A stretch of DNA of 64,000 nt, taken from assembly GCF_000949295.1 (NCBI RefSeq), contig NZ_JXYS01000023.1, forward strand, positions 1 to 64,000. The letters are read 5' to 3'. A program made the translations under genes and the position numbers. Origin of the DNA: Acidithrix ferrooxidans (GTDB lineage Bacteria > Actinomycetota > Acidimicrobiia > Acidimicrobiales > Acidimicrobiaceae). Below the pieces are notes generated by a model that did not search any database, was not told where the DNA came from, and worked only from the letters and a program-made list of their open reading frames with translations. Below, in pieces: positions 2,061 to 34,754 of the stretch (position 1 is its first letter; each line of letters begins with the position of its first letter).

Positions 2061-2173
2061 AGAGTCCACTCGACCGAGTGAACTCACGGGATTATCTATA
2101 AATAAGAAGCATCGTTCTTGCGACAGTAAGTCTGTTTTTCATGCACATGGTTTGAGTAAGACACTTTTAGTGG
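2061..2173 (+). other. Left attachment site of the integrated element (attL)
   Basis: These 113 bp align without gaps to 34571-34683, offset 32510 bp, with about a dozen mismatches. Positions 2135-2168 are a 34-bp identical core. The right copy overlaps the 3' end of tRNA-Val and the 3' end of the serine recombinase gene, which is the usual arrangement for integration at a tRNA. The left arm, 2061-2134, also resembles the recombinase coding sequence (ESTRPSELTGLSINKKHRS), which points to a remnant of an earlier related element to the left. Confidence 0.8.
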
Positions 2174-2463
2174 CACTATCAGATGCTGATACAGAAAAGT
2201 GGGCACTCTTAGCGAGTCAGCCATTGCCCGGAGACCTTTTTTTGGTACCTAATGATCGACCAAATTCAAACGTGAACCACGGAGTAGTCGCTAAGATTCG
2301 TCAACGTCAAAAGCGGTTAACCTACCTCGAAGTAAACCAAGTTGTAGCTGCCTACTTCGGAGGATCGACTACATACGAAATCGCAAGCCAGTTTGGACTT
2401 CATCGCCACACAGTTAGTCGGCATCTCAAGGATCGCGGCATTCAGCTCGGTCGACGACGTTAA
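2152..2463 (+). CDS. HTH protein; probable split-off C-terminus of the serine recombinase
   Basis: The frame begins with TTG inside the attachment core and encodes 103 residues ending in a helix-turn-helix (YEIASQFGLHRHTVSRHLKD, about residues 76-95) and a basic tail. This is the kind of HTH found at the end of many actinobacterial serine recombinases. The TTG aligns base for base and in frame with codon 605 of the recombinase at the other end of the element. In the excised circle the two would form one gene of about 707 codons. There is no clear ribosome binding site, so separate translation in the integrated state is doubtful. Upstream the frame is open back to a TGA at 2046. Confidence 0.6.
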   Translation: MSKTLLVALSDADTEKWALLASQPLPGDLFLVPNDRPNSNVNHGVVAKIRQRQKRLTYLEVNQVVAAYFGGSTTYEIASQFGLHRHTVSRHLKDRGIQLGRRR

Positions 2464-10973: not shown

Positions 10974-11322
10974 CGTTTCAACCCCCTGTAAATCGAACTT
11001 GACAAAGCATTCTGATGGTTCGTGATCAACCATCATTCTGCCACAAACCATTAATCGTTTAGATTCGCAGAACAGCTTATTCGTCCGAGAGATGCCAATT
11101 TGAGATTTCCGTCGAATTAAGAGTATTGCGTCATCAAAACCCAGCGATTCGGCGCTATGGCGAAGAATTGTCGCTCGAGAGTATTAGCGAACAAGGAATT
11201 CTCAATGCCAACGGTCTCAGATGAACTCAGGCTTAGTGGCCTGCTGATATAGGATACGTATCCGCATAAGTGGAAATCCTCAGATAAGAAGAAAGGACAA
11301 GAGCAAACTTTGTCATTCTGAC

Positions 11323-11532
11323 ATGCCTGATAGTGGCTTACCGGTGAAGGACTTCGTACCTAAACAGATACAGCATCGCTTGCATGCCGACGAGATTATT
11401 GAATTGATGGCAGCCTACCAAGCTGGAATCCTAATGAAAGATTTGGCAAAGCGCTACCAGATTGATCGCCGAACGGTATCAGCGATATTGAGGCGACAGG
11501 GAGTGGATAAGCGCCCTCGGCGGACCCGTTGA
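11323..11532 (+). CDS. Small HTH protein (recombinase C-terminal type)
   Basis: The 69-residue product carries MKDLAKRYQIDRRTVSAILR (about residues 41-60), a helix-turn-helix like the one ending many serine recombinases, plus a basic tail. It resembles the HTH at 2152-2463 and the one at 11752-11919. It could be a small DNA-binding regulator or directionality factor, or the left-over end of a recombinase gene from a nested element. ATG 11323 lacks a strong ribosome binding site. Confidence 0.5.
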   Translation: MPDSGLPVKDFVPKQIQHRLHADEIIELMAAYQAGILMKDLAKRYQIDRRTVSAILRRQGVDKRPRRTR

Positions 11533-11751
11533 TTGATTTGACTGAGAGATCTGTGGAGAGGTCAAGCCCCGCGGCACACTTCAATCCTAAGTCATCAATC
11601 ATCGATCTTACAAATACCGCAGATTTTCCAACATACTCGCCGATTGCTAAACCAACCCTCAACTCACGAGCTATCATGTCTTTGCAGTACCTCAGGTGCA
11701 TCTAGCTCCTCGGAGATCAGGATCCCTTGACACTGACTTGGGAGATGGGAG

Positions 11752-11919
11752 ATGAAATATACTATGCCCCAGGCCAACATCGGATCGCTTCTTGGTGACT
11801 ACCTCAGCGGGTCCTCCACCTACAAGCTCGCTCTCAAATATGGTCTAAACCGCCATACTGTCAGCAGTATCCTCGGAAAGTCTGGCATTCAGCCCGGTTG
11901 CCACCAACCCAGCGGCTGA
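11752..11919 (+). CDS. Small HTH protein (55 aa)
   Basis: ATG 11752 is preceded by GGGAGATGGGAG, a good ribosome binding site. The product reads MKYTMPQANIGSLLGDYLSG and then STYKLALKYGLNRHTVSSIL, a helix-turn-helix clearly related to TTYEIASQFGLHRHTVSRHL at the left end of the element. At 55 residues it is essentially only a DNA-binding unit. A regulator or excision factor is possible; so is a remnant of a recombinase tail. Confidence 0.5.
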   Translation: MKYTMPQANIGSLLGDYLSGSSTYKLALKYGLNRHTVSSILGKSGIQPGCHQPSG

Positions 11920-24072: not shown

Positions 24073-25190
24073 ACAACAGCCTCGACGACTTCTTGAGCTT
24101 CGGGAACGCGAATATGACCGGAGAGGAGTTCAGGGAGGAGGGCGTCCCGGAGTATCGAGAGCGAGCTATTTTCGTGGTCTGCTGCGATTGCACGATTTAC
24201 AATCGGCATTGATTCTTGCGTCCAATTTACAAGCGAACCATCGTTAGCAAAGTCGACTTGCTGTGCTAGCACCGCATGCCTGTTCAATCCTGGTACCGCG
24301 GAATCCGAATTCATAGCTGATAGGTCAAGGCTCTTCAACGCAAAAAAACTTGCCAAAAGAGAAACAGCGGTGTCCGGTCGAACATAGAACGTAGTATCGA
24401 TTGGATAGCAAGGCCCTGCCGACCAATGGACGGTACCAATACTCCCCTTGCGACCAACGATTACAGCTGGACCACGAATCAAACTGTTGCTGTGGTATCC
24501 TGTGATTCCACTACTCCCGTAGACCGGAACGGTGCCCGAATGCCTATCGGTAGCGGGGAGTGCCTTGCCGTACTCCAAAGACATTATGTCTCCTAGTGTG
24601 CGAGCCTCAGCACTGGATGTAATCGCTCCGTACTTACATTCGACCAGCGCCCACGCCTGACTGACTATCCGCCTATTCGACTCAATCTTGTCATCCAACG
24701 CTCCGAGCGTGGCCGCGATACCTCGCTGCTCGATAAGATTCGGTACAGTAACCGGAATTTTTTCTAGATCGCCTTGCCTCAAGTATGGGAGTGCACTGCC
24801 CTCAGCCCATTTACTGAGTCCTAAAGTGGCCAATAGATAGTACAAGAATCTCGGGTCTACCATTTCCAGACAGGCTATAGCTGCCATCATGTTGTTGTCG
24901 ATCAGAGTCGGTCGTGTGATGATTCTTAACCGTTCCGATTTTAGCGCCTCCCCTATCTTTGCAAACACAATCGAATTGGCTGGTATGAGCTTCGCTCGAA
25001 GGTGCACAATGACCTTGCCTGAAACCCAATTATTGGCACCCAGTATCCACATATGATTCTCTGGCAGGTTCATGTCGCTGACTTTTATAAATGGTATGGA
25101 GCCACTCCGCGAGCCTTGGTCGACGCGTGGAAATGCGCCTCCAGCTTGGAAGTTGCACAACCGCCCCAGCATCACGCTTCTCCAACTCAC
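24069..25190 (-). CDS. hsdS: Type I restriction-modification specificity subunit
   Basis: The 373-residue protein begins [20 protein letters not shown] and shows the two-halved HsdS plan: a target recognition region, a helical spacer with [20 protein letters not shown] (about 151-170), a second recognition region starting near [14 protein letters not shown], and a final helical part with [16 protein letters not shown]. The halves decide the two parts of the DNA target. It overlaps hsdM and hsdR by four bases each. The target sequence cannot be read from the protein by eye. Confidence 0.93.
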
Positions 25191-26773
25191 AGGATCAGCC
25201 CTCCAAGCCGCTCCCGAATGACTTCCTCTAGTCGGCGTCCTTCCTTGAACTCAGCAAACAGCTCCCCTTGAAGCCGTGCAATCTTCTCATCGATCGGCTC
25301 ATCGTCGATCTCTGCGTCAGCAGCACCTACGTAACGTCCTGGAGTTAGAACAAAGTCATGTTTGGCGATCTCCTCTAGGTTGGCAGATTTGACAAAACCG
25401 GGTACATCTTCGTAAGGAACCTCAGGATCACGACTTCGCCAAGCGTGATAGACGCCCGCGATCTTTGATATGTCTCCCTCCGACAGCACTCGTAGACGGC
25501 GGCTCTCCATTGTTCCAAACTTTCGAGCATCGATAAACAACACCTCGCCTGTGCGCTTGCGATGCCCATTACCGTGACGGTTCTTCGAAACGAACCACAG
25601 GCTCACTGGAATACCAGTTCCAAAAAAGAGCTTGTCCGGCATCGAGATGATGCAGTCAACTAAATCCGCCTCGACCAGCTTGCGACGTATCTCTCCTTCG
25701 CCACTGGTCTTGGATGACAGCGAACCGTTGGCGAGCACAAAACCCGCCGTACCGTTGGGTGCCAGATGATAGACGAAGTGTTGAACCCAAGCGAAGTTCG
25801 CATTGCCTTCTGACGGAGTGCCGTACTTCCAACGAGGATCATCGGACAACTTGGCGTTCCACCACTTGGAATCATTGAATGGTGGATTGGCGATTACAAA
25901 GTCAGCCCGCAGATCAGGATGTAGATCCTGAGTAAACGAGTCAGCGGAACGATCACCAAGATCAGCTTCGATCCCTCGGAGTGCCAAGTTCATCTTGGCA
26001 AGCTTCCAAGTGGCATCGGTGAATTCTTGACCATAGACAGAGATGTCGGTGCGTCGACCGCCGTGAGCTTTGACGAACTCGGATGACTGAACGAACATAC
26101 CACCCGATCCACAGGCAGGATCGTAAACCCGACCCTTGTAGGGCTCGATCATCTCAACTAGCACACGAACAATGGAACGCGGCGTAAAAAACGATCCAGC
26201 ATCCTTGCCGGTCTCCTTGCCAGCAAACTGACCAAGGAAGTACTCATAGACCCGACCCAGGATGTCATCACTACCGTGGTCATCGGATTCTGTAAAACCG
26301 ATTGATCCAATCAGGTCAACAAGTTGGCCCAGGCGGCCCTTGTCAAGACCCTCTCGACCGTAGTTACGAGGAAGAACGCCACGGATGATCGGATTCTCTT
26401 TCTCAATGAGATCCATTGCTCGATCGATAACCTGGCCGATGTCAGGAAGCTTCGCTTTCGATTGGAGGTACTGCCAACGAGCATCTTCAGGAACCCAAAA
26501 GACGTTGTGGCTGGTGTACTCATCTCTAGATTCCAGGAGATGTCCCCTCGTTTCAGCATTGGGAATGTAATCGCTGGATGATGGGTCGGAGAATGAGGCT
26601 TCTAAGTGTTGGTGTCGGGCTTCGAAACGATCCGAGATGTACTTTAGGAAGACGAGTCCAAGGACCACATGCTTGTACTCAGATGGCTCCTGGTTGCCTC
26701 GAAGCGCATCAGCTGCCTCCCAAAGCCGAGCTTCGAGTGTCTTTTGTGGTTTCTGTTTCGTCGTCCTCGCCAT
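25187..26773 (-). CDS. hsdM: Type I restriction-modification methyltransferase subunit
   Basis: The 528-residue protein carries the HsdM N-terminal helical domain (LEARLWEAADALRGN), the SAM-binding motif DPACGSGGMF (218-227) and the catalytic NPPF (296-299) of adenine-N6 methyltransferases. FFTPRSIVRVLVEMI (195-209) is typical of the family. It is the first gene of the seven-gene operon, with a likely promoter about 85 bp upstream. Its methylation protects host DNA; together with HsdS it is also the modification half of the system. Confidence 0.95.
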   Translation of the reverse strand: MARTTKQKPQKTLEARLWEAADALRGNQEPSEYKHVVLGLVFLKYISDRFEARHQHLEASFSDPSSSDYIPNAETRGHLLESRDEYTSHNVFWVPEDARWQYLQSKAKLPDIGQVIDRAMDLIEKENPIIRGVLPRNYGREGLDKGRLGQLVDLIGSIGFTESDDHGSDDILGRVYEYFLGQFAGKETGKDAGSFFTPRSIVRVLVEMIEPYKGRVYDPACGSGGMFVQSSEFVKAHGGRRTDISVYGQEFTDATWKLAKMNLALRGIEADLGDRSADSFTQDLHPDLRADFVIANPPFNDSKWWNAKLSDDPRWKYGTPSEGNANFAWVQHFVYHLAPNGTAGFVLANGSLSSKTSGEGEIRRKLVEADLVDCIISMPDKLFFGTGIPVSLWFVSKNRHGNGHRKRTGEVLFIDARKFGTMESRRLRVLSEGDISKIAGVYHAWRSRDPEVPYEDVPGFVKSANLEEIAKHDFVLTPGRYVGAADAEIDDEPIDEKIARLQGELFAEFKEGRRLEEVIRERLGGLIL

Positions 26774-29478: not shown

Positions 29479-29691
29479 ATGAGCAAGAAGCGGAATAAGA
29501 ATAGTAGCCGACATGGTACGACGAGATCAAACCGCGTTCGCATCCTGCCAATACATCACGACCAACCCGACCTTCACAAGCTCGGACGAGCCTTTATCGC
29601 CCTTGCGCTGCATGAAGCGGCTCAAGAGAAACAAGCGCAACAACAAACCGAACAGGCAGACAATTATGAAAATCAGAAGGAGGCAACGTGA
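29479..29691 (+). CDS. Small basic-to-acidic hypothetical protein (70 aa)
   Basis: ATG 29479 is preceded by GGAAGGGGTGG. The N-terminus is strongly basic (MSKKRNKNSSRHGTTRSNR), the C-terminus is rich in Gln, Glu and Ala. Its stop overlaps the start of the VirD4-like gene by four bases, so it is probably a translated partner of it. No family is recognised. Confidence 0.6.
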   Translation: MSKKRNKNSSRHGTTRSNRVRILPIHHDQPDLHKLGRAFIALALHEAAQEKQAQQQTEQADNYENQKEAT

Positions 29692-31844
29692 ATGTCTCCT
29701 CGAAAACACGTTGTTGGTATGAAATCAGCTGGCCACGACCCTTTGATCCTGAGAGCGCGATCGAACTCTTGAGTCGGCTCTCAGCGGATCGATCACTTGG
29801 CACGATGATCTGGGAGACCTGGGGACAAGATGGTGCTATTCGAAATCTAGTCGGCATTGACCCAGGACGTGAAGCAATACTTCGAAGAGTGGTAACGACA
29901 ACGGTCGATGGGGCTCAGGTAATTGAAAAAGGAGGGCGAATACCGATCACCCAAGCCATCACTCTCCGGTTCACCAAAGCCCACCTGGCCATTGACACCG
30001 AACGTATCACGGCAACTGTTCGAGCTGTTCTCGCTGGCCTTGCTGCTCCAAGAGGCGAACATGAAGACGTAGTCCTGCAAGTACTCCTTGGACCTCGAAC
30101 CTCTCCTTCAATGCTTCCCGCCAAGTTGAGCGACGCTGAAGCCACGTGGTTAGACCTGATTCGGGGTTCGATCAATCCGGCTTCGGCTGAACAACGCAAA
30201 TCGCTCAAAACCAGAGCGAGTCATCATGGCTTTCAAGCAGCAATCCGCATTGGGGCCAAAGCCGAGAGAAAAGATCGCGCCAGATCTCTTATTGCAGGCG
30301 TAATCGCTGGAACAAAGGTTGCAGAATCGGCCGGAGTACGCATCCGTACCATCCGAGAATCACCGCAGGCGATAATGCTTGGACGACAACCGTGGCGCTG
30401 GCCGCTTCGTATGTCGGTACTGGAACTGGCTGGTGTCATGGGCTGGCCGCTCGGAGAGGGTCCGCTTCCTGGTGTAGCGCCAGAACACCCAAAACAACTT
30501 GCAGCTCCATCGTGGCTCAAGAATAGTGAACGAGCTTTCGCGGTTTCAACAGTTACCGGTACTCAGCTACGACTTGGCGTATCTTCCAGCGATTCCCTGC
30601 AACACACAGTTTTGCTTGGTCCAACAGGATCTGGCAAATCGACCACCATGTTGAATCTCATCTGCGCCGACATCAACGCTGGCAGAGGCGTGTTAGTCAT
30701 CGATCCAAAGTTCGACCTCACTAATGAGGTACTGGGTCGGATTCCAGATTCTCGGAAACAAGATGTCGTCGTTATCGATCCCGCTAATGACGCACCCGTC
30801 GGGCTGAATCCACTCGGTGGCGCCAGACGCAACCCTGAGCTGGTTGCTGACTCCATCCTGGCTGTCTTCAAATCACTATTCGCAGATTCTTGGGGTCCCC
30901 GCACCCAGGATATCCTGACAAGTGCGCTCATCACGTTAGCAAGGCAGCCAACAGCGAGTTTGGTATGGCTTCCAGCATTATTAACGGATCCGAGCTTTCG
31001 ACATCGCCTGACAAGACACATTACCGATGAGATCGGACTTGGGTCATTCTGGTCAGCCTACGATGCCATGTCGCCACAACTCCAAGCCCAGGTCATCGCA
31101 CCGGTGATGAACAAGTTACGCCAATTTCTGCTCCGCCCCGCTCTACGAGCCATACTTAGCCAAACTGAACCCAGATTCTCGATGGAAGACCTCTTTACCA
31201 AGCGGCGCATCGTGTTGGTCTCGCTCAATAAGGGCCTAATTGGTGCAGAAAGCGCGAGACTGCTTGGTTCGTTGGTGGTAAGCCAACTCTGGCCCCTAAC
31301 CCTCGCACGTGCCGCCTTACCGCCCGAACGACGTCACGTTACAAACGTCTACATCGATGAGGTTCAAGATTATTTGGCACTGCCAACTGATCTCGCTGAT
31401 GCTCTATCGCAAGCCCGAAGTCTTGGCGTCGGACTAACGATTGCGCACCAGTACCGAAGCCAACTTCCCCCGTCACTGCGTGCTGGTATTGACTCCAACG
31501 CCAGAACCAAGATCGTCTTTGGACTTGATGCTTCCGACGCTGCTGAAATGACCAAGATGGCACCAAATCTTGAGGCGGAAGACTTCATGTTGCTACCCAG
31601 ATTCTCTGTCTACACCCAGCTCATGGTAAACGGAAACGCCAGCGGGTGGATCTCCGGTCGAACACTTCCTGCGCCGAAGCTGATCTCCGACCCGGTTGCA
31701 CTGAGGCAAACAAGTGCCATCAACTACGGTCGATCCAAAGACGAAGTCGAGGCAGATATCTTGAGCACCATTGGTTCTGCTCGCAAACAAGATCACTCTG
31801 GCGCTAGCGATCAGATCGGTCGTCGACCTCGGAGAACGTCATGA
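29688..31844 (+). CDS. VirD4/TraG-like coupling ATPase
   Basis: The 718-residue protein has Walker A GPTGSGKST (311-319), then VLVIDPKFDLT, a Walker B region VYIDEVQDYLALP (about 560-572) and TIAHQYRSQLP, all characteristic of VirD4/TraM-recognition ATPases that bring DNA to a transfer channel. The N-terminal 280 residues lack clear transmembrane helices. In actinobacteria such proteins occur in integrative elements beside a replication-relaxation protein, as here. The start is GTG 29688, overlapping the upstream gene. Confidence 0.8.
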   Translation: MNVSSKTRCWYEISWPRPFDPESAIELLSRLSADRSLGTMIWETWGQDGAIRNLVGIDPGREAILRRVVTTTVDGAQVIEKGGRIPITQAITLRFTKAHLAIDTERITATVRAVLAGLAAPRGEHEDVVLQVLLGPRTSPSMLPAKLSDAEATWLDLIRGSINPASAEQRKSLKTRASHHGFQAAIRIGAKAERKDRARSLIAGVIAGTKVAESAGVRIRTIRESPQAIMLGRQPWRWPLRMSVLELAGVMGWPLGEGPLPGVAPEHPKQLAAPSWLKNSERAFAVSTVTGTQLRLGVSSSDSLQHTVLLGPTGSGKSTTMLNLICADINAGRGVLVIDPKFDLTNEVLGRIPDSRKQDVVVIDPANDAPVGLNPLGGARRNPELVADSILAVFKSLFADSWGPRTQDILTSALITLARQPTASLVWLPALLTDPSFRHRLTRHITDEIGLGSFWSAYDAMSPQLQAQVIAPVMNKLRQFLLRPALRAILSQTEPRFSMEDLFTKRRIVLVSLNKGLIGAESARLLGSLVVSQLWPLTLARAALPPERRHVTNVYIDEVQDYLALPTDLADALSQARSLGVGLTIAHQYRSQLPPSLRAGIDSNARTKIVFGLDASDAAEMTKMAPNLEAEDFMLLPRFSVYTQLMVNGNASGWISGRTLPAPKLISDPVALRQTSAINYGRSKDEVEADILSTIGSARKQDHSGASDQIGRRPRRTS

Positions 31845-32004
31845 GTCCCGTATTCATGGAAGACTCTTGTCGATCCGAGCGTCGGGTCACGACGACGAGC
31901 AACTTTTGGGGAGGCCGCACGTTCCCTCAAAGAACCCCAACAAGGGATAAGACTCCTCTGCATCACCGATGCTGTGGAGTCTTTCACCACTGGCGGGGGT
32001 TGCA

Positions 32005-32853
32005 ATGACCGGGCAGTTGCCTGTCAAACGGACTGGGCGTCGTGAGTTGGAAGTCATTGGTAAGTCTCTTAGTAATTATGATCTTGCAATTCTTGAGTCC
32101 GTGGCCAAACATCGCTTTCTCACGACTAATCAAATCTGTAGATTCCACTTCACCAACAAACCAACCAAGACCGCAGCGTTAAGGTCAGCTAACCGAACGC
32201 TTGCCAGGTTGCGAGAGTTACGGCTTCTCGTCAATCTGGAACGGCGAATCGGTGGAGTCCGTGCCGGGTCTGGATCCTTTGTCTGGACTCTCGGTATAAC
32301 CGGTGCCCGAATTCTAAATAATGATGATGCTGACGGCAGTACTAGTGGCCGATACCGGGAACACGAACCAACGACCACCTTTCTTGAACACCACCTCGCT
32401 GTAGCAGAAGTTCACCTGGAACTTCAGATGATCGCCGCTGGTCAGGCAGTAGCACTGAGCAACCTGCAACTTGAGCCGACATGTTGGAGGTCGTATCTCG
32501 GACTCGGTGGCGAGACGAGATGGCTAAAACCTGATCTGGCGGCCACAACTACCACAGACGACTTTGAGGATCGCTGGTTCTTCGAGATCAACCGAGGAAC
32601 CGAGCCACCTTCTCGGGTGCTTCGTAAGTGCCAGCAATTCCGGGGTTATAGAGCTACCGGCATCGAACAGCGCCGTATCGGAGTCTTTCCAGCGGTGGTG
32701 TGGATCGTTCCAAGTTCCAAGCGGGTCCAGAGCCTACAGATCTACCTCAAGGAGCATGAAGTAATGAGCGATCGGCTGTTTTCCTTTATAACACTCGATC
32801 AGCTGGGAGATCTGGTAGTTAGCGGTCCCGAAGGGAAAGGAGGTATCCAGTGA
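32005..32853 (+). CDS. Replication-relaxation family protein
   Basis: ATG 32005 follows GGGGGTT; a longer frame from 31969 is less likely. The 282-residue product starts with a winged-helix part (LSNYDLAILESVAKHRFLTT, QICRFHF, ANRTLARLRELRLLVNLERR) and continues with a nuclease-like half (FLEHHLAVAEVHLEL, WLKPDLAA, RWFFEINRGTE), the pattern of the replication-relaxation family of actinobacterial plasmids and integrative elements. It may act as initiator or relaxase. It overlaps the recombinase gene by four bases. Confidence 0.8.
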   Translation: MTGQLPVKRTGRRELEVIGKSLSNYDLAILESVAKHRFLTTNQICRFHFTNKPTKTAALRSANRTLARLRELRLLVNLERRIGGVRAGSGSFVWTLGITGARILNNDDADGSTSGRYREHEPTTTFLEHHLAVAEVHLELQMIAAGQAVALSNLQLEPTCWRSYLGLGGETRWLKPDLAATTTTDDFEDRWFFEINRGTEPPSRVLRKCQQFRGYRATGIEQRRIGVFPAVVWIVPSSKRVQSLQIYLKEHEVMSDRLFSFITLDQLGDLVVSGPEGKGGIQ

Positions 32854-34715
32854 GTTATCCCCAGAAACCAGACGAAACACCAGCTGATGGACTTGATCAA
32901 TCTGACAATCAGAGGTACAACATGAGTGACCTAAACGGAGAACCAAGTCCAATGGAAGCAGCCACATATATGCCAAGACCATCGCTCACCGAAGCCATCA
33001 AAGAGTCCCTAGCGCCCAAGGTCGCCATCTCATATTTGCGAGTCTCAACCCGTGACCAAGCAACACGAGGCGGGGAGGCGGAAGGATTTTCCATTCCCGC
33101 CCAACGAGATGCCAACAGACATAAGGCGGCATCGCTTGGAGCCATTGTCATCAAGGAGTTCGTTGACCGGGGCGCCTCTGCCCGATCGGCAAACCGACCT
33201 GAGCTGCAGCGCATGCTCGAATATATCCAAGAGCACGAAATCGATTATGTCATCGTGCATAAACTCGATCGCCTGGCACGCAACCGAGCCGATGACGTCG
33301 AGATCAGCCAGTCACTCACCAATTCCCGGGTAAGGCTCGTATCCACGACCGAAAGCATCGACGAAACCCCATCGGGAATGTTGCTCCATGGGATTATGAG
33401 CTCTATTGCCGAGTTCTACTCCCGCAATCTTGCCAACGAGGTCATCAAGGGTATGACACAAAAAGCTCGAGGTGGCGGCACCGTCTCCAAGGCTCCCCTT
33501 GGTTACCGCAACGTGCATAATTCAAGCGCCGAAGGACGCGAAATCCGAACCGTCGAGGTCGACCAAGATCGGGCACCTTTGATTACATGGGCCTTTGAAA
33601 CCTATGCCACCGGCGAATGGACCATGTCCTCACTGGCTGAACGACTGGCGAGCCGCGGACTAACTACCAAGGCAACGCCAAGGATTCCATCGAAACCAAT
33701 GACCGAGTCCTATCTCAACAAAATCCTCATCAACCCCTACTACAAGGGTCAAGTTCACTTCCAAGGTGCCTTGCTACCTGGAAAACACGAACCGCTAGTC
33801 GATGAGGTAACCTGGCAACGGGTACAAAGCGTCATCGCCTCACACGTCAACGGTGAGAGAACCCGGACTTATCCTCATTTTCTAAAAAGCACCGTGTTCT
33901 GCGGATCATGTGGATCCCGGTTGCTAGTACAGATCGCCAAGTCCCGTTCGGGGATGCGATATGGATATTTCATGTGTTCGGCTCGCCACGCCAAACGCAA
34001 CGATTGTGAACAAAAGTCCGTTCTGATCGACGAAGTAGAAGAGAAGATCGCCGAATACTACAAAGGAATCTCCATCAGTGCAGAGTTTCGACGCCAGGTT
34101 GAATCCACCTTGCTTATTGAGTTGAAACGAGCTCGCCAAGAAACAGACGATGAGCAAGAGGACATGCGCCGGGAACAGGAAAAGCTGATCCGGGAACGCG
34201 ACAAGCTGATGCAGGCACACTACGGCGGTGCTATTCCACTCGACGTTCTTAAAACAGAACAAGACCGGATCGCATCTGGGATGGCGCGCATCGCCAGCCG
34301 GATCGAGGCATCAACTTCGCATTTTGACATTGTCGAAGGGAACCTCACAAAGGCGCTCGATCTGCTCGAGGACTGCGCTACCGCTTATAGCTGCGCTCCA
34401 GATCACATCAAGCGAATGTTCAATCAGGCCTTCTTCAATAGGATTCTGGTAAATCCAGATCTCGGCATTCGAGCCGAGCTGGCACCACCGTTTGATAATC
34501 TGCTCTCTCCGGAGCTGCGTGTAGCGGTTCGGGGTGACCAGCAAGAAGATGACGGCATCCAGGAAAACAAAGAGTCCACTCGACCGAGTGGACTCGAGGG
34601 ATTATCTATAAATAAGAGGCATCGTTCTCCCAACCATCAGTCGATTTTTCATGCACATGGTTTGAGTAAGACACTTTTGGTGGGCGCTAAGGGACTCGAA
34701 CCCCCGACCTGCTGA
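32850..34715 (+). CDS. Large serine recombinase (integrase of the element)
   Basis: The 621-codon frame has the resolvase domain with catalytic Ser66 (SYLRVSTRDQ) and HKLDRLARN (137-145), a recombinase domain (APLGYRNV, ILINPYYKGQ), a zinc ribbon (C351, C354, C376, C386) and a coiled coil (about 400-480). The first 40-50 residues lack resolvase similarity; Met25 or Met35 may be the real start. The last 18 codons, from L604, pass through the attachment core into the tRNA-Val gene (VGAKGLEPPTC is antisense tRNA), so this tail is acquired on integration. In the circle the frame would instead join the HTH ORF at 2152. Confidence 0.92.
   Translation: MSYPQKPDETPADGLDQSDNQRYNMSDLNGEPSPMEAATYMPRPSLTEAIKESLAPKVAISYLRVSTRDQATRGGEAEGFSIPAQRDANRHKAASLGAIVIKEFVDRGASARSANRPELQRMLEYIQEHEIDYVIVHKLDRLARNRADDVEISQSLTNSRVRLVSTTESIDETPSGMLLHGIMSSIAEFYSRNLANEVIKGMTQKARGGGTVSKAPLGYRNVHNSSAEGREIRTVEVDQDRAPLITWAFETYATGEWTMSSLAERLASRGLTTKATPRIPSKPMTESYLNKILINPYYKGQVHFQGALLPGKHEPLVDEVTWQRVQSVIASHVNGERTRTYPHFLKSTVFCGSCGSRLLVQIAKSRSGMRYGYFMCSARHAKRNDCEQKSVLIDEVEEKIAEYYKGISISAEFRRQVESTLLIELKRARQETDDEQEDMRREQEKLIRERDKLMQAHYGGAIPLDVLKTEQDRIASGMARIASRIEASTSHFDIVEGNLTKALDLLEDCATAYSCAPDHIKRMFNQAFFNRILVNPDLGIRAELAPPFDNLLSPELRVAVRGDQQEDDGIQENKESTRPSGLEGLSINKRHRSPNHQSIFHAHGLSKTLLVGAKGLEPPTC
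34571..34683 (+). other. Right attachment site of the integrated element (attR)
   Basis: It matches 2061-2173 over 113 bp with a 34-bp identical core at 34645-34678. The core ends in the encoded CCA of tRNA-Val. The left arm is coding sequence of the serine recombinase. Crossover within the core would excise the element and leave the tRNA intact. Confidence 0.8.
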
Positions 34716-34754
34716 GTGTAAATCAGCTGCTCTAACCAACTGAGCTAAACGCCC
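34678..34754 (-). tRNA. tRNA-Val (UAC), CCA encoded
   Basis: Read on the minus strand, the acceptor stem GGGCGTT pairs with AGCGCCC, the D-arm reads TAGCTCAGTTGGTTAGAGCA, the anticodon stem GCTGA/TCAGC encloses the loop TTTACAC with anticodon TAC, and the T-arm contains GGTTCGAGTCCC. The 3' CCA is encoded at 34678-34680. This is the integration target of the element. Confidence 0.95.

Follow-up and report, generated by a model that had tools for sequence, protein, structure and literature searches.

The integrated element and its integrase

The window, i.e. the whole stretch of 64,000 nucleotides of Acidithrix ferrooxidans that was analysed, contains between 2170 and 34680 what would be a mobilizable or conjugative element of ~32.5 kb (Table 1). 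Its TraD/TrwB-like coupling protein is conserved in relatives, in which a replication-relaxation gene also adjoins the integrase gene. The cargo of the element includes an HsdM gene (25187-26773), 93% and 83% identical to the copies in the elements of G028:C45 and G000:C78.

Table 1. Features at the two ends of the element and in its mobilization region.
Feature	Position	Strand	Basis
Severed 3' integrase part, 97 codons with HTH plus stop	2170..2463	+	Paralogue, alignment, dN/dS
Probable 3' relic of an older, related integrase gene, sharing the frame of the HTH part	2061..2169	+	88% DNA identity to 34571-34679
Crossover dinucleotide GT, left end (attL)	2170..2171		GTGG invariant in 33 aligned left ends
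TraD/TrwB-like coupling protein	29688..31844	+	Pfam
Replication-relaxation protein, 4-bp overlap with integrase start	31969..32853	+	PF13814, 1e-39
Large serine integrase, integrated (truncated) form, 621 aa	32850..34715	+	Pfam domains
Recombinase-side att arm GGTTTGA, mirror image of tRNA T-loop	34659..34665	+	Motif mirrored at offset 16, 14/14 right ends
Crossover dinucleotide GT, right end (attR)	34680..34681		Homology with empty sites begins here
Target tRNA-Val(TAC), T-loop motif TCGAACC at 34696-34702	34678..34754	-	aragorn; motif offset 16

The enzyme has the domain set of a serine integrase, with Pfam matches to Resolvase (1.3e-33), Recombinase (2.7e-10) and Zn_ribbon_recom (2.9e-8), and its best solved match is the TP901-1 integrase. 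The catalytic, recombinase and zinc-ribbon domains all stay whole after integration. An earlier note on this DNA had given the coordinates of the gene correctly, as we found on rechecking them, and had let the frame run for 18 codons into antisense tRNA. The frame does end in antisense tRNA-Val, but the 18 includes the stop codon and only the last 11 residues of the integrated form (VGAKGLEPPTC) lie past the shared core.

The two ends share a gapless repeat of 113 bp (34571-34683 and 2061-2173; 88% identity, E 6e-35). The start of codon 605 at 34662 and the TTG at 2152 are the same base of this repeat and are in the same frame, as the earlier note had pointed out; its placing of the crossover there was wrong. 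At the empty tRNA-Val sites of the genus, similarity to the window sets in only at about the GT adjoining the tRNA 3' end (for example GAGTGG, AAGTGG and TTGTGG), whereas occupied sites have TGGTGG there. When 33 left ends of related elements are aligned at the GT, GTGG is invariant except for one base in one sequence, and the DNA is near-random upstream and forms a conserved arm downstream. Because the empty-site homology starts at the GT and GTGG is invariant, we place the crossover of the window at 34680-34681, equivalent to 2170-2171. In Leucobacter sp. cx-42 (NZ_JACVMU010000007.1, 235,998-264,619) the flanks of the element, once joined, align without a break to the empty tRNA-Leu site of a congener, and this alignment confirms the crossover point there to the base. 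Informative empty-site relatives were also sought for G055 and G048, and none were found. The tRNA-Val genes at the empty sites of the genus lack an encoded CCA; the arm of the element (ACCA.. in 14/14 right ends, 34678-34680 in the window) gives the tRNA one after integration.

The left copy of the repeat, upstream of 2170, does not represent the host attachment site, since it is missing from the empty tRNA-Val sites of the genus. We rejected for the same reason the idea that the 113-bp repeat is a host tRNA flank captured by attP. Since the empty sites lack the repeat, these alignments make it most likely that 2061-2169 is left over from the 3' end of a related integrase gene that once stood at this tRNA. 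The frame of the left ORF is open farther upstream, from 2050. Similar tandem leftovers were seen in the related contig G000:C78 and in several relatives. Two small HTH ORFs akin to the severed tail (11248-11529 and 11737-11916) lie inside the element and are possibly relics of other left ends. The contig G000:C26 of the same genome has three left ends of the integrase family at about 90.4, 93.5 and 109.7 kb, which suggests a long tandem array.

A reading frame through the attachment site

Translation of the joined ends of the circle gives an integrase of 707 residues with the HTH at its C-terminal end, as had been predicted. The HTH of the window tail is recognized weakly by Pfam (E 0.002). 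The tails of relatives score as Hin/resolvase-type HTHs (HTH_38, HTH_7 and HTH_23), often two in tandem where the window tail has one. The severed HTH part has a paralogue on contig C26 that is 55% identical; the dN/dS of this part is 0.21 overall and 0.13 within the HTH.

The same anatomy is found across the family. At the right ends the integrase frame meets the GT of the tRNA 3' end in phase 0 at 24/24 distinct loci, and at the left ends, collected by a DNA motif search blind to phase, the spacing between GT and HTH is divisible by 3 in all 28 distinct loci; the loci in either set share ancestry, hence these counts are not fully independent. The right-end linkers have at least 10 different lengths (18-213 nt) and lead into tRNA-Val, -Ala, -Met, -Leu and -Pro, and an internal stop between the conserved block and the GT occurs only in one decayed copy. 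The left ends have 14 distance lengths and zero stops between GT and HTH. A phylum-wide HTH search added few further left ends. Independent changes in length that never break the frame would be difficult to account for if the site were not translated through, and an anatomy repeated in dozens of loci makes the arrangement in the window more than chance. We looked for relatives that stop before the core or whose frame is not restored, and the frames of the relatives cross the GT. The attachment core thus lies within the integrase frame, and in the circle the enzyme would be lengthened again by a C-terminal DNA-binding domain, as the earlier note had proposed for this one element; on the alignments this is a trait of the family, with relatives in many actinobacteria. 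The more distant serine recombinases L037, L038 and L039 likewise extend antisense into tRNA genes, those for Arg, Ala and Ser. The loci L130/L131 (G486:C26 and G584:C1) have frames of 763-990 aa made of many similar HTH repeats and are unrelated to the integrase question.

Fused forms of the gene were also found. Integrase, core and HTH are joined in frame in G000:C78, G018:C82 and G004:C27, and shorter in-frame fused junctions occur in G022:C8, G009:C10 and G065:C333. A search with a whole-attP pattern gave 11 matches in 397 genomes, one of them apparently unrelated, versus two for a reversed control pattern. At three of the attP-pattern junctions the tail is only 17-19 aa long with no HTH, hence the HTH is not universal. 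The locus L073 (G049:C190:35609-37594) encodes an intact integrase of 661 aa with an uncut attP-like core. Its C-terminal domain is of an unrelated second type with no Pfam match, and stands alone as a left-end ORF on a second contig of G049 as well as in further genomes. There is no tRNA on the contig G049:C190, whose genes include ParB-like and DarB-like ones. Relatives of ~700 residues ending in the same HTH had been anticipated: the fused in-frame junctions agree with this, but among the genomes searched these are fragments, an intact integrase of full length ending in this HTH did not turn up, and the intact protein of L073 carries the other domain. Free or full-length forms were sought in plasmids, in phages and in IMG/VR; none were found, the two matches in IMG/VR being distant only. 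At L067:16257-16850 (G022:C8) two attachment cores lie ~60 bp apart, in frame, and form a mini-unit of ~20 codons before the HTH.

The HTH ORF could instead be an independent gene starting at the crossover GTG or nearby, with the integrase frame crossing the site by accident. The crossover codon is indeed a possible start codon; however, upstream of it lies unrelated host DNA in which no ribosome site is conserved, the integrase frame arrives at the GT in one phase at every right end despite the variable linkers, and in-frame fused junctions and the intact fusion exist. We consider this explanation highly improbable.

Most pairs of HTH parts have dN/dS of about 0.12-0.4, indicating purifying selection. 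As the upstream DNA is host sequence in the integrated copies, the selection would have to operate while the element is in a different state, of which the circle is the simplest. Synonymous substitutions are few in the first ten codons (pS 0-0.27, versus 0.18-0.76 in the HTH part), as expected since this stretch is both coding sequence and attP arm. The conserved start 'VDLxxxLSNP' is weakened as a proof of protein selection by this double role, and the frame test over variable spacers was used in its place.

It is also conceivable that the att site merely lies in a dispensable C-terminal extension, with both forms equally active and the loss of the tail of little consequence. The survival of the three main domains and the tails of 17-19 aa in some relatives agree with this. 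But the HTH is under purifying selection though it is severed in the integrated copies, and other members have an unrelated second domain in the same place, so we regard a dispensable tail as quite unlikely.

Design of the attachment site and a possible latch

A distance of 16 bases separates the T-loop motif of the tRNA from the GT. All 14 right ends have the motif at the mirrored position of the recombinase-side arm, at times imperfectly, and 34 of 38 left ends have it at +21 in the HTH-side arm (33 in the scoring itself, ties counted, plus L079 after its misplaced crossover was corrected). In attP the half-site motif is located ~5 bp farther from the centre than in attB, a shift of the zinc-domain motif (Rutherford 2013, PMC3783163). 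The HTH-side +21 versus the tRNA +16 would fit such a 5-bp shift, but the recombinase-side arm at 16 is attB-like, the window's own left arm being divergent and without the canonical motif at +21. Judged from these arms, attP mimics the T-loop of the tRNA. Integration would make the tRNA end symmetric and attB-like, and so favour tandem entry.

We consider it probable that attP lies in the 3' coding part of a large serine integrase gene, that the crossover at the GT splits this gene and removes the tail, and that a latch may result. Sequence comparisons establish the crossover point, the frame common to its two sides, the selection on the tail and the recurrence across the family, as well as a split gene that keeps its catalytic part and loses a conserved tail. 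In the circle a single gene would encode the catalytic, recombinase and zinc-ribbon/coiled-coil parts, a linker, the attP-coded stretch and the C-terminal HTH. Crossover at the GT abutting the tRNA 3' end would leave the catalytic part beside the tRNA, ending in a short antisense-tRNA tail, and would strand at the opposite end the HTH coding part, which there lacks a conserved start. The tailed enzyme would drive integration; the tailless one would be altered, weaker or unable to recombine alone, and integration would thus latch itself. Excision would then require a directionality factor or the full-length enzyme of a relative, and a second element entering at attR would recreate an in-frame junction between integrase and HTH. 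The like construction of the family in many actinobacteria suggests that the latch may be built in. An activity switch between the excised and the integrated enzyme, as the earlier note had imagined, is a reasonable inference with precedents. The narrower claim that the loss of the tail is a catalytic latch has, in our judgement, nearly an even chance. Going further, we speculate that the tail may be a self-removing directionality domain: each integration would turn an integration-only enzyme into the latched form and the site into a more symmetric attB, and the next element would restore the long gene in tandem, in a widespread tRNA-targeting family with its attP written in codons. We hold this extended version only tentatively.

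The SSV-type integrases of archaea also target tRNA. Integration in our family might be suicidal as it is there, with the split enzyme dead and exit possible only with help in trans. Frequent tandem remnants are as expected if excision is rare, but the catalytic part is uncut here and only the tail is lost, unlike in the SSV integrases, and we think this rather unlikely. The HTH tail might on the other hand be mainly an autoregulator, the long form repressing its own operon in the circle and integration relieving or abolishing this, so that the switch is one of expression and not of catalysis. The resolvase-type HTHs in the tails of relatives point this way, as does the repressor of mycobacteriophage BPs, which is switched by an attP within its gene (PMC4557955). 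However, no operator was identified, and the position of the attP arm, within the opening codons of the tail, speaks for a function at the att site. We see autoregulation as a fairly unlikely alternative.

The one-way reactions of serine integrases are a central question and the basis of their use as tools. An enzyme whose substrate site severs its own DNA-binding domain would be a natural one-shot latch, of which the Leucobacter element offers a direct test case.

Comparison with known systems

The streptococcal ICEs in rumA have a single serine integrase whose own gene contains the att site, and as in our family integration changes the C terminus of the integrase and the excised form differs in length, according to the portion consulted of Ambroset et al. 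2016 (PMC4701971). They differ in that their target is a protein gene, where our family uses tRNA genes with no integration in rumA, and in that the exchange alters the frame of both genes; the same portion mentions no DNA-binding tail that is conserved. A streptococcal IME has a serine integrase whose site, too, falls within its own gene (PMC5357655).

In phage Mx8 attP lies inside int and integration replaces a C terminus of 112 residues by 13 residues (PMC4701971, PMC6070905), the modified, shortened integrase being less active (PMC4701971). By analogy, Mx8 would be the nearest functional precedent for the proposed latch. Both enzymes have attP in int, but that of Mx8 is a tyrosine integrase of a single phage and that of the window is a serine recombinase. 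The genes of the archaeal SSV-type suicidal integrases are split by integration, an arrangement described in 2021 as exclusively archaeal (PMC8371274). These are tyrosine recombinases (IntN / IntC) whose catalytic protein is killed by the split, whereas the serine recombinase of the window keeps its catalytic part whole. Integration-dependent immunity in BPs involves attP in a regulatory gene, the C terminus of whose product is shortened by integration, but the protein switched is the repressor and not the integrase (PMC4557955).

The universal T-arm and 3' end of tRNA, which our family targets, were said not to be used by serine integrases (Islander 2014, PMC4383910), or only rarely: the consulted part of PMC3218068 calls rare the actinobacterial AICEs with serine recombinases in tRNA-Leu and the phage phiRSM1. 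These resemble our family in bringing a serine recombinase into tRNA genes, and that part, with which we compare by description only, mentions no split-gene arrangement. In the literature searched, which covers few subscription journals, we found no description of a tRNA-targeting serine integrase family that sheds its DNA-binding domain. Integrases changed by their own integration are already known from the rumA ICEs, Mx8 and the SSV types. What is new here is the removal of a conserved HTH tail, in a family of serine integrases, at an attP that mimics the tRNA T-loop.
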